This document shows positions 202 through 12,402 of a stretch of DNA of 38,357 nt, one piece after another. This DNA comes from Bacteroidales bacterium (GTDB lineage: Bacteria; Bacteroidota; Bacteroidia; Bacteroidales; VadinHA17): contig JALOMO010000048.1 of the NCBI GenBank assembly GCA_025455395.1, forward strand, positions 1 through 38,357, in the 5' to 3' direction. The notes under the pieces are model-generated. The model saw only the letters and a list, made by a program, of their open reading frames with translations, searched no databases and was not told where the DNA came from. A program made the translations under genes and the position numbers. Position 1 is the first letter of the stretch; every line of letters begins with the position of its first letter.

Positions 202-364
202 GGACAAACAGGGGTTGGTTGTCTTTTCCGGCCTCCTTTTCTTTAGTTCATTTGGCTTCGCTGAGCTCGTCAGGCTAAAGCCTTCTTCGGTTCTTTTGGA
301 GGAGCAAAAGAAATGAACATAATCCCCAAAAAGAAGAGGGAGCCCTTTTGAGACACCCTCTTTT
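202..364. repeat. Dispersed hairpin element, copy 1 (with 39-bp insertion)
   Basis: This is the first of two direct copies of a roughly 124-bp element; the second is at 470-593. The copies align base for base with a handful of substitutions, apart from a 39-bp insertion at 254-292 in this one. The insertion splits the left arm of an inverted repeat (246-253 plus 293-298), while its right arm at 305-318 is intact. The copy ends in an AGAGGG/CCCTCT hairpin with a T run. On the minus strand it translates in frame into the RHS remnant. No transposase is associated. It resembles a non-autonomous interspersed repeat. Confidence 0.75.
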
Positions 365-469
365 CATTAGTTATCAACATATTAACCGTTTATGTTGCGC
401 GAGGGTAAGCCGGAAAAGGTGCGAACCGCACCCTGTTTGGTGGCGCCTTTAAGGCCTTGTGCAGCGGGA

Positions 470-593
470 GGACAAACAGGGGGTGGTTGTCTTTTCCGGC
501 CTCCTTTTCTTTGGTTCATTTCTTTTGGAGGAGCAAAAGAAATGAACAATAATCCCATAAAAGAGAGGGTGCCCTTTTGAGACACCCTCTTTT
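470..593. repeat. Dispersed hairpin element, copy 2 (uninterrupted)
   Basis: This is the second copy of the element at 202-364 and lacks the 39-bp insertion. It contains a perfect 14-bp inverted repeat and a terminator-like hairpin at its right end. The two copies are separated by about 105 bp that is itself rich in small hairpins, for example GGTGCG-AAC-CGCACC at 418-432. Short open frames on both strands here are best read as by-products of the repeat rather than genes. Confidence 0.75.
514..547. repeat. Perfect 14-bp inverted repeat inside copy 2
   Basis: The arms at 514-527 (GTTCATTTCTTTTG) and 534-547 (CAAAAGAAATGAAC) are exact reverse complements around a GAGGAG loop. In copy 1 the left arm is split by 39 bp. 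The preserved symmetry suggests the hairpin is a defining part of the element. Confidence 0.85.
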
Positions 594-595
594 TT
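564..595. terminator. Terminator-like hairpin at the element's right end
   Basis: AGAGGGTG at 564-571 pairs with CACCCTCT at 583-590 and is followed by a T run on the plus strand. A-rich sequence precedes it, so it could work in both directions. Copy 1 has the shorter form AGAGGG/CCCTCT. Confidence 0.5.
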
Positions 596-606
596 ATAAA
601 TAACAG

Positions 607-630
607 AGAGGCGTAGCATGCTACGCCTCT
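607..630. repeat. 24-bp perfect palindrome downstream of the 646-1491 gene
   Basis: Bases 607-618 (AGAGGCGTAGCA) are the exact reverse complement of 619-630. The palindrome lies 15 bp past the stop of the minus-strand lipoprotein gene, so it probably forms that transcript's 3' hairpin. There is only a weak T-rich tail on that strand. A protein-binding or REP-like role cannot be excluded. Confidence 0.6.
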
Positions 631-645
631 GCAATTTATTATATA

Positions 646-1491
646 TTAATTCTTTACGGGTAATTTAGGATGCCTGAACCTCAGGGTTATCTCTTTGCTC
701 TCATCACCCCTTATGATAGTTGCGTATGCATCGCATTCACCGTCACCGTAGTCAAGGTCAAACGGCTCGATACCCTCTATCTCAAACCTCAGTGTGCCAC
801 TGACAAGAAACCTGCATGCCGCTGTCCACTTAAGGCTGTTGATGATAGTGTGAGTATAACTCTTGCCACTGAGGTTGACACCTGTAGCAATACCGCTGAT
901 GAAACATGCATCATCCCACGGTGTGTTTGTCAGAAATCCTGAAATATACTCCCTCTCATGTTCGAATTCGCGCTCAATTGTCTTCCCGTCAGGAAAGCTC
1001 ATCTTGCCTCCTGCGAGAGTGATGCCGAAGACAACATTCTGATTGTTGTTGGGACCCAGATTCTCAATTGTCTTGGTGCCTTCTATCTTCACTCCGTTGA
1101 CATAGTAGTCGACGAAAGTGACTGTACGTACTGATCCTGTCTGCCTGCGCGGGGCGCTCATGGTGATAAGTATCTTGCCACTGCGGACTACGTCGTATAA
1201 CCCTGTGCACGCTGTGCCATAGTTGATCTCTATATTGCGAGGCCAGAGACCCTCCCCGGGGAAGGTTACCGTAACAACCGGACAGCTGTCAACAACTGAC
1301 GATTTAAGCCCGGCCTCGGCAATTGATGAGGCAATCTCAAGAGAGGCAAAAACGTCATCATAAAGAGTCTCTGCAAATACGGCATCATCAGCCGCCTCAA
1401 TGCTTGACTGCTCGATTGGTTTTGTCTTCTGACAGGATGTTAATGCAAAACCTGCCAGGATCATAATTACGATTAATGATTTTGTTTTCAT
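646..1491 (-). CDS. Uncharacterised lipoprotein, Bacteroidota type
   Basis: This 281-residue protein has a lipoprotein signal: a basic start, a hydrophobic stretch and LTSC at about residue 20. The mature part is mostly beta-rich. It carries a CPVVTVTFPGEG segment, then an NYGTACTG motif followed by SGKILITMS, a pattern I associate with a common family of Bacteroidota hypothetical lipoproteins. No catalytic motif is visible. It stands alone: the palindrome at 607-630 follows it, and an 87-bp gap separates it from folA upstream. It probably sits in the periplasm or outer membrane. The function is unknown. Confidence 0.8.
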   Translation of the reverse strand: MKTKSLIVIMILAGFALTSCQKTKPIEQSSIEAADDAVFAETLYDDVFASLEIASSIAEAGLKSSVVDSCPVVTVTFPGEGLWPRNIEINYGTACTGLYDVVRSGKILITMSAPRRQTGSVRTVTFVDYYVNGVKIEGTKTIENLGPNNNQNVVFGITLAGGKMSFPDGKTIEREFEHEREYISGFLTNTPWDDACFISGIATGVNLSGKSYTHTIINSLKWTAACRFLVSGTLRFEIEGIEPFDLDYGDGECDAYATIIRGDESKEITLRFRHPKLPVKN

Positions 1492-9464: not shown

Positions 9465-9574
9465 TTTGAAGCGAAAGCAGAAATAAAGTTATGATAATTG
9501 AGATAATTTTGTCTCTCGATTCAGAAACTTTTTTATATTGCGGCTGTTTCTTATTAAACCAAATTACATAGAGT

Positions 9575-9901
9575 ATGAAGAAATGGATGATTGGCAGCCT
9601 TATTCTCATCGCACTGATGGTAGTGGCTGCAGGAGTTTACGCTCAGGCCTCAGACAAGGAGAAGAAGCAGACCAAGAAAGAGTGTACCTTCGTCGATAAT
9701 AACAAGGACGGTAAATGTGACACATGCGGTTCTACTGCAGATGCATGCAAGAATGCTGCTGCCGGTAAAGACTGCAGCACTACCGCTGGTAAAGACTGTT
9801 CAAAGTGCCCTTCAGCTGCAGGTTGCGCTGAGACAAAGGGTGAGGCAGTCCCGGCCGGTCAGGCTACTGCTGCTGCTCCATGCTGCCCAGCAAAGAAGTA
9901 A
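9575..9901 (+). CDS. Small secreted cysteine-rich protein with Ca-loop-like motif
   Basis: This 108-residue protein has a Sec signal peptide (basic start, hydrophobic core, VYAQ) cleaved near residue 23. The mature part holds ten cysteines (C37, C48, C51, C58, C67, C75, C78, C84, C103, C104) and many A, G and K residues. DNNKDGKCD (41-49) has the D-x-N-x-D-G-x-x-D spacing of dockerin/thrombospondin-type calcium loops, with a CxxC directly after. An AGKDC unit occurs twice. No family is recognised. It may bind metal or be disulfide-rich in the periplasm. It is a single-gene unit ending in a strong terminator. Confidence 0.75.
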   Translation: MKKWMIGSLILIALMVVAAGVYAQASDKEKKQTKKECTFVDNNKDGKCDTCGSTADACKNAAAGKDCSTTAGKDCSKCPSAAGCAETKGEAVPAGQATAAAPCCPAKK

Positions 9902-9918
9902 TAACTTCTTACGATATT

Positions 9919-9951
9919 AAAAAAGCCCCCGGTTTTGCCAGGGGCTTTTTT
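9919..9951. terminator. Bidirectional intrinsic terminator
   Basis: AAAAAAGCCCC pairs with GGGGCTTTTTT around a CGGTTTTGCCA loop, with T runs on both strands. It serves the Cys-rich gene on the plus strand and the HIT gene, whose stop is at 9970, on the minus strand. Confidence 0.88.
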
Positions 9952-9969
9952 ATTGTATCTGGTTATTGG

Positions 9970-10368
9970 TTACAGTTTTACCTGCTCACTTATAGCTTTG
10001 GCAAGACGCCTCTGTTCTTCGTCGGAGAGAACGACCCTCGGGTTGGTGAACAATATATCCATCTCCCTATCAAGCGGAATGAGATGTACATGTGCGTGCG
10101 GCACCTCCAGTCCTATCACAGCCATACCAATTCTTTTACACTCAACCACCCTCTTTATCCCCTCGGCCACCTTCTTTGAAAAGAGGGTCAGGTCAGCAAG
10201 TGTCAGGTCATCGAGGTCAAAGATATAGTCAACCTCCTGCTTCGGAACTACGAGAGTATGCCCTGCCTTGAGAGGCTTTATGTCGAGAAAAGCAATGAAA
10301 CGGTCATCTTCAGCGACTTTATAACAGGGTATCTCACCATTGATTATCCGCGTGAAAATTGATGCCAT
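9970..10368 (-). CDS. HIT-family (HINT-like) nucleotide hydrolase
   Basis: This 132-residue histidine-triad protein has the standard MASIFTRIINGEIPCYKVAE start, then FLDIKPLKAGHTLVVPK and the catalytic triad HAHVHLIPL near the C-terminus. HIT/HINT proteins hydrolyse purine nucleoside phosphoramidates and related AMP conjugates in the cytoplasm. The frame is open a further 27 codons upstream, but those residues are not family-like and overlap greA, so the start at 10368 is used. It follows greA by 13 bp and shares its transcript. Confidence 0.94.
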   Translation of the reverse strand: MASIFTRIINGEIPCYKVAEDDRFIAFLDIKPLKAGHTLVVPKQEVDYIFDLDDLTLADLTLFSKKVAEGIKRVVECKRIGMAVIGLEVPHAHVHLIPLDREMDILFTNPRVVLSDEEQRRLAKAISEQVKL

Positions 10369-10381
10369 ATAATAATGATTT

Positions 10382-10852
10382 TCAGATTGATATATTAACA
10401 ATCTCGAACGGAATAATGCCTGCCGGCACCTTGACCTCAACCACATCACCCACTTTTCTTCCCATAATGCCCTGGGCTATTGGCGAAGAAGCGGCCAGCT
10501 TTCCCTCTTTAAGGTTAGCCTCCGTCTCAGGCACTAGCTGATATTCCATGGTTGTGCCGCTGGCCCTGTTGCGTATCCTCACCCTGTTCAGTATCTGCAC
10601 CGTGGTGGTATTGATACGTGAGCCGTCAATGATACGTGACCGTGCTACCTGGTCTTCCAGGCGTGCTATCTTCATCTCAAGCATGCCCTGGGCCTCCTTG
10701 GCTGCTGAATACTCGGCATTCTCAGTAAGGTCTCCCTTATCGCGTGCATCAGCAATGAGCCTTGCAATAGCCGGTCTTTCATTACGGAGCAGGTCAAGTT
10801 CCTCCTTCATTTTATGGAGCCCCTCTTCTGTTACATAGACAAATTCCGACAT
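10382..10852 (-). CDS. greA: Transcription elongation factor GreA
   Basis: GreA rescues backtracked RNA polymerase by stimulating cleavage of the nascent transcript. The 156-residue protein has the N-terminal coiled coil with the acidic tip (ARDKGDLTENAEYSAAKEAQ, D/E at the loop), and the C-terminal FKBP-like domain with the NRVRIRNRASG strand and ASSPIAQGIMGRKVGDVVEV. It heads a two-gene unit with the HIT protein. Its leader contains a terminator-like hairpin placed immediately after the promoter. Confidence 0.97.
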   Translation of the reverse strand: MSEFVYVTEEGLHKMKEELDLLRNERPAIARLIADARDKGDLTENAEYSAAKEAQGMLEMKIARLEDQVARSRIIDGSRINTTTVQILNRVRIRNRASGTTMEYQLVPETEANLKEGKLAASSPIAQGIMGRKVGDVVEVKVPAGIIPFEIVNISI

Positions 10853-10869
10853 AATTCTCTTCTGATAGG

Positions 10870-11328
10870 TTAAAAAATAAGAAGAATCCCGGCATTACCG
10901 GAACTCTTCAAAGAACAAATATACAAAACTTTCAATAAAAAAACAATCTCGTAGTCATATACCGGAGCGTCGGTTATCTCACTGTCTGAAATTGTTGTAT
11001 CAGCTACGGCTTTCATCTGCAGTTCTGACATACCTCTGATCCCTTCAGAAGCAAACGCAGCAGCCATTGAGCTCTCTATTGACCCCTCATCAGAAAATTG
11101 TTTCGCCAGGGGTTCACTATAGTGACCCTCATCAACCGGTGCTGCAAAAACGGGCTGAGGTCTGCGAGGGGCCTCAGCCTTAGGCTGCTGCTGAACAGGC
11201 TGGGGAGTACTCTTGCGCGGAGCAGCCTGACCCGGTACCTTTTTCTTCTTGCCCTGAAATGATCCTGCAAGACCAATTATTGCAAGAATAATGTAGAAAA
11301 TGATATTGCCTAATCCGTTATCTTCCAT
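10870..11328 (-). CDS. Small single-span membrane protein, C-terminus doubtful
   Basis: The 152-residue frame starts MEDNGLGN, followed by one membrane helix (IIFYIILAIIGLAGSF, about 9-24), a KKKK stop-transfer patch, and a P/Q/A-rich, low-complexity linker. An acidic region follows (SDEGSIESSMAAAF and similar), so most of the protein should be cytoplasmic. The last 25 or so residues, from EIVFLLKVLYI on, are encoded by the greA promoter and hairpin and look unlike the rest, so the natural end may have been lost. It begins 6 bp after the Lys-rich protein's stop, probably in one operon. The function is unknown. Confidence 0.65.
   Translation of the reverse strand: MEDNGLGNIIFYIILAIIGLAGSFQGKKKKVPGQAAPRKSTPQPVQQQPKAEAPRRPQPVFAAPVDEGHYSEPLAKQFSDEGSIESSMAAAFASEGIRGMSELQMKAVADTTISDSEITDAPVYDYEIVFLLKVLYICSLKSSGNAGILLIF
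10871..10909 (-). terminator. Terminator-like hairpin in the greA leader
   Basis: In minus-strand RNA, GAAGAGUUCCGG (10909-10898) pairs over all 12 positions with CCGGGAUUCUUC (10892-10881) around a UAAUG loop, using two G-U wobbles. It is followed by UUAUUUUUU. On the plus strand the wobbles become A-C mismatches, so the structure favours the greA-sense RNA. It lies between the greA -7 element and the greA ATG, and also overlaps the 3' end of the upstream open frame. Confidence 0.65.
10916..10947 (-). promoter_or_regulatory. -33/-7 promoter of greA
   Basis: The minus strand reads ATTG (10947-10944), a 20-bp spacer, then TATATTTG (10923-10916), a perfect -7 match. The start of transcription would fall around 10909-10912, giving a leader of nearly 60 nt. 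Confidence 0.6.
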
Positions 11329-11334
11329 GATTTT

Positions 11335-11850
11335 TCAGGGTTTTGGTGTTTTTCTTTTTCCGGGTTTCCGCTGTTCTTTGCGTTGTTTCTGCTTCTTGGC
11401 TTTATAATCAGATTGCGTCTTTTTCTCATTTTTAGTCATCCGCTCCCTGGTGGCCTCATTCTGATTGGCGTAAATCTTATTCTTCTTCTTGTTCTGTCTC
11501 TCTTTCTTTGCCTTATAGTCAACCTCAGTCTTCTTTTGATTGTTAGCCATCCGCTCCCTGGTAGCCTCATTCTGCATGCTGATATGCCGTTTCCTGAGCT
11601 CCTCCATGGCCTTCTCCTCCTCCTTGTCGCGCCGGGCCTCCTTCTTCTCCTGCTCCCTCATCGCCTTGCCGGCTGCCCCGGGTACCCTTACCTTATCGTT
11701 CGCAGGCTTGCTTTTACCCGTCTTGCCAAACAACTCCTTCTCCGCTTTACGGCTGGCACTGCGCTGGGCATTACACTCAGTTACAGGTACGGCAAACAGC
11801 AATATAATGAGTGTAACCGCAAATCTTATAAATACTATCTTCTGCCTCAT
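11335..11850 (-). CDS. Secreted, highly basic repeat protein
   Basis: This 171-residue protein has a signal peptide (hydrophobic 8-22, likely cleavage near CNAQ). The mature protein is extremely rich in K, R, E, Q and N, probably helical or disordered. Two copies of a 24-residue repeat, beginning QNEATRERM and ending in DYKAKK, lie at residues 93-116 and 130-153, 37 residues apart. No enzyme motif is seen. A charged periplasmic or envelope structural protein is a reasonable guess only. It is followed 6 bp later by the small membrane protein gene. Confidence 0.75.
   Translation of the reverse strand: MRQKIVFIRFAVTLIILLFAVPVTECNAQRSASRKAEKELFGKTGKSKPANDKVRVPGAAGKAMREQEKKEARRDKEEEKAMEELRKRHISMQNEATRERMANNQKKTEVDYKAKKERQNKKKNKIYANQNEATRERMTKNEKKTQSDYKAKKQKQRKEQRKPGKRKTPKP
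11392..11574 (-). repeat. Two-copy coding repeat in the basic protein
   Basis: The DNA at 11503-11574 and 11392-11463 encodes near-identical 24-residue repeats (QNEATRERM start, KAKK end), separated by a 13-residue K/N-rich spacer. Confidence 0.75.
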
Positions 11851-11886
11851 TGCGTTTGAATGTTATAGCCGGCTCAAAGAATTAGC

Positions 11887-11894
11887 TACTTTTG
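11887..11894 (+). promoter_or_regulatory. -7 element for the Rieske-like lipoprotein gene
   Basis: TACTTTTG matches TAnnTTTG, 19 bp before the ATG at 11914, so the leader would be very short. A TTTG at 11855-11858 is too distant for a -33. Confidence 0.45.
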
Positions 11895-11913
11895 CAAAAA
11901 CCGCGAAATAGAC

Positions 11914-12402
11914 ATGTCAGGTTCAAATTTAAAGATTTTTTTGTTCGCAGCGTTACTGCTGCAGCTCTTATATTCATGCAGTGATGAGAAAAATGATGTG
12001 ATACCTGACATTACAATTGACTTCAGGATCTATTTCTCTGATCCGGAGTTTTTTGATCTTAACAATGCCCCGGGAAGCAGCGCCCTGATATCATCTTCAC
12101 ATATCCACCTCGGCATCGGCACGGGAGGATATGACAATAACGGCATTATTGTATATAACTCAGGCCTGGAGGGGTTTGAATACTATGCATTTGATCGTAC
12201 CTGCCCTCACTGCTATGTTACTGCTTCAGAGAGTATTGCTGTCAATGTTGACGGTGTCTTCGCTGTCTGCCCCAGATGCAATACCCTTTATGCCATGGGA
12301 AGTTCAGGAATGCCACAGTCAGGTCCGGGCCAGTATTATCTGAAGAACTACAACACTGACTATTTCGGGTCAGGTGTACGGGTATGGAATAAGAGAGATT
12401 GA
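11914..12402 (+). CDS. Rieske-like lipoprotein with a CxHC/CxxC ligand set
   Basis: The 162-residue protein has a lipoprotein signal ending in LYSC (C22). The C-terminal half has the outline of a Rieske domain: FEYYAFDRTCPHC at the first ligand loop (C97, H99, C100), FAVCPRCNTLYAMGSSG at the second (C119, C122), then GPGQYYLKNY, a typical Rieske closing segment. A true Rieske cluster needs CxH and CxxH; here the second histidine is a cysteine. The site may hold zinc, a different Fe-S form, or just a structural cluster. It lies convergent to ahcY with only 10 bp between stops. Confidence 0.72.
   Translation: MSGSNLKIFLFAALLLQLLYSCSDEKNDVIPDITIDFRIYFSDPEFFDLNNAPGSSALISSSHIHLGIGTGGYDNNGIIVYNSGLEGFEYYAFDRTCPHCYVTASESIAVNVDGVFAVCPRCNTLYAMGSSGMPQSGPGQYYLKNYNTDYFGSGVRVWNKRD

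Follow-up and report, generated by a model that had tools for sequence, protein, structure and literature searches.

The stretch analysed here, referred to as the window, comprises 38,357 nucleotides of a Bacteroidales bacterium (assembly GCA_025455395.1, contig JALOMO010000048.1, positions 1 to 38,357), and the element in question is the leader of its greA gene. The gene lies on the minus strand at 10382..10852, begins with an ATG at 10852 and encodes the transcription elongation factor GreA of 156 aa (Pfam GreA_GreB domains, PF03449 and PF01272). Read in the direction of greA, the leader, also on the minus strand, is made up of a −7 box, TATATTTG, at 10916..10923, a terminator-like hairpin, GAAGAGUUCCGGUAAUGCCGGGAUUCUUC, at 10881..10909, which was recognized from folding and conservation, a U tract, UUAUUUUUUA (that is, TTATTTTTTA), at 10871..10880 and a spacer of 18 nt at 10853..10870 leading to the start codon. 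The gap between the −7 box and the hairpin is 6 nt and the hairpin ends 28 nt before the ATG. The box fits TAnnTTTG, the consensus for the primary sigma factor of Bacteroidetes; a possible −33 TTG at 10944..10946 (minus strand), 20 nt upstream of the −7 box, was read by eye and is weak. We consider it likely that this arrangement is a promoter-proximal intrinsic terminator which attenuates greA and releases an RNA of about 40 nt; the promoter box, the hairpin, the U tract, their conservation and the link with greA are all borne out by sequence comparison. On re-reading of the sequence, the coordinates that a preliminary description had given for the element were correct. The 12-bp stem described there stands as well, to which a U.G pair closing the loop is to be added. 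Likewise, the two G-U pairs said to exist only in the greA-sense RNA are indeed strand-specific, one G.U and one U.G in the stem, with the loop-closing U.G as a third wobble; on the opposite strand all of them become A/C mismatches.

Folding of a 45-nt stretch gave −19.4 kcal/mol for the greA-sense hairpin (z −6.0, 0 of 200 shuffles as good) and −11.0 kcal/mol for the opposite strand. Within longer stretches the z value was −2.1 (75 nt) and −3.7 (101 nt). The first 20 kb hold 30 terminator-like sites, among which the hairpin is listed first; shuffles give 16.8 (standard deviation 4.3), and two other minus-strand sites, at 9952..9918 and 600..554, are stronger by energy. Among the 37 TAnnTTTG or TAnnTTCG boxes of the window, the greA box alone is followed within 20 nt by the start of a terminator-like hairpin. 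The leader of greA carries, in the sense of the gene, both the terminator-like hairpin and the U tract that are looked for in a greA leader attenuator. Elsewhere, positions 217..685 of the window hold several terminator-like hairpins on both strands (362..334, 600..554 and 633..604), and one site is duplicated near the window start, at 217..233 and 485..501.

Directly downstream of greA, on the same strand, lies a HIT-domain gene (9970..10368, Pfam PF01230), which is probably co-transcribed with it. The hairpin at 9918..9952, listed as a terminator-like site on both strands and hence bidirectional, would end the greA–HIT transcript. Upstream, the open reading frame (ORF) at 10870..11328 of the minus strand is without the C-terminal stretch common to its congeneric relatives (seven loci compared). 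It reads through the greA promoter and hairpin and reaches its stop, UAA, directly behind the U tract, as if a deletion had taken the end of the gene and the spacer behind it and left the promoter and hairpin intact.

The gene itself was detected in 55 of 60 relatives, in 286 of 295 genomes of the order and in all 296 phylum genomes, and 184 Bacteroidota greA leaders were compared. These comprise 85 search loci (L001–L030 and L032–L086) and 99 leaders taken by place (L087–L185), the latter about one per family or genus among the greA rows listed; L031, which occupies the same place as L001, 80 named loci (L186–L265) and the E. coli leader (L266) stand outside the counts. It should be borne in mind that the leaders share ancestry and that 17 come from one genus. 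A strict detector found the hairpin with its U tract in 160 of the 184 leaders against 2.6% of dinucleotide shuffles, and the positives are spread over the genus (17/17), family (10/11), order (78/89), class (40/47) and rest of the phylum (15/20). With a relaxed detector the hairpin was found in 170 of 184 leaders versus 7.1% of shuffles. Seven of the 80 named loci were also put through the strict detector. Bacteroidales MAG Prado051, whose GreA is 97% identical and which is the nearest named relative among the matches listed, Coprobacter secundus, two Barnesiella strains and Geofilum rhodophaeum were positive, and the hairpin was not found in Muribaculum caecicola and Marinilabiliaceae bacterium ANBcel2.

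The hairpin also tends to lie close to a promoter box. Within the class, the 20 leaders from the rest of the phylum being set aside for this test, a −7 box was present in 142 of 164 leaders and the hairpin started no more than 20 nt from a box in 112 of these 142; of 448 boxes at other positions flanking the 85 search loci, 1 had a hairpin that close. Over all 184 leaders, a −7 box occurs upstream of the hairpin within 40 nt in 125, of which 87 have a box-to-stem spacing of 1–8 nt, the start site being read from the box, and the commonest spacing is 6 nt (28 leaders). Among 16 of the 17 congeners (L002 is cut short and was left out) the identity is 1.0 for the box, 0.964 for the hairpin and 0.979 for the U tract, compared with 0.60 for the upstream sequence, 0.68 for the spacer, which is far less conserved than the hairpin, and 0.59 for the third codon positions of greA.

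That the repeat is used as RNA is suggested by two asymmetries. A pair search in which G.U and A.C were treated alike returned 235 G.U against 16 A.C pairs (146 of 184 leaders with a match); the ratio is 123 to 4 in the order outside the family and 62 to 12 in the class and phylum, and the trend of the tail holds there too. The nine nucleotides after the core contain on average 7.1 T, while the mirror position contains 3.4 A (144 leaders), in line with a T-rich tail across the leaders. Since G.U pairs far outnumber A.C and the T tail is one-sided, the repeat behaves as a greA-sense RNA hairpin with a one-sided U tract, terminator-like, rather than as a DNA repeat.

Covariation was evaluated on two alignments. 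The first, A1, contains 17 of the 29 stem-bearing leaders in L001–L030 (11 near-identical ones and L030 were dropped). In it 97.1% of cells are paired, and the paired cells, the two-sided cells and the covariation score beat every shuffle. The second contains 57 Bacteroidales loci, remaining from 62 sources picked by eye for stem type of which five (L071, L089, L100, L112 and L136) gave no greA-sense match; it was fitted to the covariance model R1 described below and is thus biased towards structure, while its shuffles keep relatedness. Here 97.6% of cells are paired against 92.6 in shuffles (0 of 500 as high), 48 cells are two-sided against 8.6 (0 of 500 as many), and two-sided changes touch 5 of the 12 pairs, a number that 3 of 500 shuffles attain. 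Cells that fail to pair occur solely in the two pairs adjoining the loop. One G.U wobble is kept in 56 of the 57 loci, and in the lower stem the 3′ arm is nearly invariant while its 5′ partners vary between A and G, a pattern that is not accounted for by pairing alone. The hairpin is conserved before greA in relatives with covariation, as looked for in an attenuator, the signal being weaker on the first 17 leaders. The preliminary description had suggested an early-termination control of greA and an alignment of the greA leaders of relatives. The alignment gave the same layout in the 160 leaders, compensatory changes in the stem, a U-rich 3′ side, G.U in excess of A.C and an identity well above that of greA third codon positions; it lends strong support to the suggested control.

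The stems themselves fall into sequence families. Many Bacteroidales have one stem sequence in common, and other groups have different stems in the same layout. R1 has a single match in its own genome at E ≤ 1, at the greA hairpin; in that search 150 of 2264 first-look candidates were scored, and R1 E-values are rough. Matches at E ≤ 0.1 occur in 157 of the 295 genomes of the order. With E below 1e-3 there are 69 matches in the order, the own match left out, and the greA position is listed for 57 of them: 49 lie within 300 nt upstream of greA on the same strand and eight lie elsewhere (G459:C4, G494:C2, G388:C145, G358:C8, G476:C1, G606:C100, G502:C39 and G504:C1). These eight could be ordinary terminators or leaders of other genes, and the greA specificity of R1 within the order is incomplete. 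When R1 was run against the 296 phylum genomes, 14 genomes matched besides its own, and none of the 12 with a listed greA position, compared by eye, had the match adjoining greA. A narrow-family reading of this search was dropped, as leaders outside the order show other stems at the same place. In one well-sampled genus of the class, for example, the stem is AATCCCGTC...GATGGGATTTTTT after TATATTTG.

Some families of the order have a different stem near GGACCCTT...AAGGGTCTTTT before greA (L088, L090, L110, L114, L133, L137 and L138); several leaders of this type are without a clear TAnnTTTG box, and L099, L127 and L130 look like variants. Outside the class, the GC-rich leaders L166, L168, L169, L170, L172 and L176 carry a stem CGCCGC-GCC...GGCCGTGGCGTTC-like with a T-rich tail before greA, of which L168 is missed by the strict detector. 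By their sequence, these leaders would form a further family of the same layout.

A mechanism can be proposed from this layout. The Bacteroidetes promoter consensus places TAnnTTTG at about −7 (PMC7366714), and on this basis we infer +1 near 10912, about 3–4 nt before the stem, and a terminated RNA of about 40 nt. The greA promoter would accordingly fire a few bases upstream of the hairpin, at about 10912, so that the hairpin would form at practically the very 5′ end of the RNA and the polymerase would reach the U tract after some 40 nt. Part of the polymerases would stop there and release the ~40-nt RNA, and the remaining ones would carry on into greA and the HIT gene. The short box-to-hairpin spacing argues against a start downstream of the hairpin. 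If the start lies where the box predicts it, there is no room for an aptamer, a leader peptide or an upstream antiterminator. Because the leader holds little but the terminator and its spacer is poorly conserved, the share of readthrough would be set by a factor whose point of action is either the polymerase or the hairpin.

GreA is the likeliest and simplest candidate for this controller, by negative feedback as in E. coli, a role to which we would give somewhat less than an even chance. According to PMC6829880, about one third of E. coli transcripts pass the intrinsic terminator of the greA leader, the GraL RNAs of 37–47 and 49–59 nt are found, and GreA represses via GraL in cis, for which catalytically active GreA is required; a switch of the hairpin arms abolishes most of the repression though termination persists in vitro. 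By analogy with the rimP-leader (see below), NusA-like recognition of the fixed stem might be the next candidate after GreA. More tentatively still, and less likely than not, the element could be a minimal attenuator, its leader little more than one hairpin and U tract abutting the start site, that serves as a GreA dosage sensor. The layout would have been kept or reinvented while stems turned over between orders, and in Bacteroidales the fixed G.U and 3′ arm would be recognized by a particular partner, be it GreA-bound polymerase, NusA or a target in trans. GreA would then alter the behaviour of the polymerase over the initial 40 nt of greA.

Several observations weigh against promoter-proximal attenuation of greA and have to be set beside its support. 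The 5′ ends of the leaders are placed from sequence alone. No hairpin was found in 24 of 184 leaders by the strict and in 14 of 184 by the relaxed detector, including L027 of the same family. Of the 160 hairpins, 35 lack a TAnnTTTG or TAnnTTCG box up to 40 nt away; beyond the class, just 3 of 15 hairpins have one. The 6-nt spacing is common largely via the 17 congeners and elsewhere is spread from −1 to 35 nt. In A1, the number of pairs with two-sided changes (2) and that of further pair types (6) are not above shuffles. As to GreA, its autoregulation in E. coli was not recapitulated in vitro and depends in addition on the GraL bases that precede the hairpin (PMC6829880); such bases would be all but missing here.

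Other explanations of the hairpin have been considered. It might simply terminate the upstream gene at its 3′ end and be overlapped by the greA promoter by chance, and the nearest upstream ORF does run in the direction of greA in the window, as it does at 54 of the 77 loci with a hairpin. In the other 23, including 18 of 22 from other orders of the class, that ORF is divergent and the hairpin is still present, so that an upstream-gene terminator is not the general explanation and the condition under which the preliminary description would have given up a greA leader fails at these loci. Upstream ORFs here are simple longest-ORF picks, hence crude (84 loci checked, 77 with the hairpin). Furthermore, in the 125 leaders with a box upstream, transcription from the box must cross the hairpin, and the upstream ORF of the window does not stop before it. 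Taken together, this explanation appears very improbable. The DNA of the repeat rather than its RNA could also be the functional form, as an operator bound by a repressor. A palindrome-like repeat at the presumed start site would suit such a role, but the non-Watson–Crick pairs, G.U far over A.C, are relevant only in RNA, and the U tract is conserved as well; of all the alternatives we regard this as the most remote.

A further pair of explanations accepts the RNA hairpin and differs in what it is for. Protective 5′ stem-loops are known, with ompA and aprE as examples, and a hairpin nearly flush with the presumed 5′ end could shield the greA mRNA from decay instead of terminating it. Stability needs neither a U tract as conserved as the stem nor the run of T after the hairpin, both of which are found, and pure protection is accordingly most unlikely, even if protection and termination could coexist. 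Rather less improbable, though still unlikely, is that a trans-acting small RNA of about 40 nt is the main product and attenuation its by-product. The 3′ arm and the one G.U of Bacteroidales are kept beyond the needs of pairing, and GraL of E. coli also acts in trans, with nudE as its likeliest target (PMC6829880). The stems differ between groups while the place before greA is kept, however, which points to a cis role first. Attenuation of greA by the promoter-proximal terminator remains the reading we prefer.

The element was also compared with known RNA families. Rfam RF01769, the Enterobacteria greA leader, has no match in 10840..10950 (E ≤ 10) or 9500..12000 (E ≤ 5), while the E. coli leader as a control scored 127.5 bits against a gathering score of 60. 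Near the hairpin every Rfam family stays below its gathering score, the best being BTnc201 with 19 bits versus 105, and the same holds at six other Bacteroidota loci. A riboswitch, T-box or leader-peptide attenuator was rejected, there being no Rfam sensor, only ~3–4 nt before the stem (for the start placed as above) and a poorly conserved spacer. In the literature searched, supplementary tables lying outside its scope, no mention of a Bacteroidota greA attenuator was found, and greA is absent from the searched passages on B. thetaiotaomicron and F. psychrophilum; the texts searched included PMC10994844 and PMC9723704. The element is a clear and testable RNA element without a match in the Rfam search. 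GreA is a widespread partner of RNA polymerase. If a bare terminator flush with the start site fronts its gene throughout a phylum, control of GreA by early termination would have a greater age, or have been reinvented more often, than is apparent from E. coli. The way in which GreA raises termination at its own leader could then be approached in a setting free of the additional leader sequence on which E. coli depends.

Among known systems, the greA/rnk leaders of Naville and Gautheret have, as here, recurrent terminators before greA; in their 2010 study (PMC2965389) greA/rnk ranks seventh among the attenuated gene families of 302 genomes. Its main text contains neither ‘bacteroid’ nor ‘flavobacter’, and in the leader described here no antiterminator is apparent. 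The rimP-leader of the same study is similar in that a short terminator whose stem sequence is conserved precedes transcription-factor genes, with no antiterminator to be seen, and differs in its gene and stem motif; its authors infer protein recognition with NusA as the best candidate. The closest likeness is with the E. coli greA leader and GraL, in which, as predicted here, an intrinsic terminator stands between the promoter and greA, and our detector finds the E. coli terminator too. They differ in that the E. coli RNA has 18 nt before the hairpin, which matter for autoregulation (PMC6829880), against ~3–4 nt estimated here, and about 100 nt rather than 28 nt between the hairpin end and the ATG. 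By sequence the element is not RF01769, and its anatomy resembles that of a greA attenuator. The same design before greA over much of Bacteroidota suggests that these bacteria set the dose of GreA through the premature end of many transcripts, for which E. coli uses an unrelated sequence.
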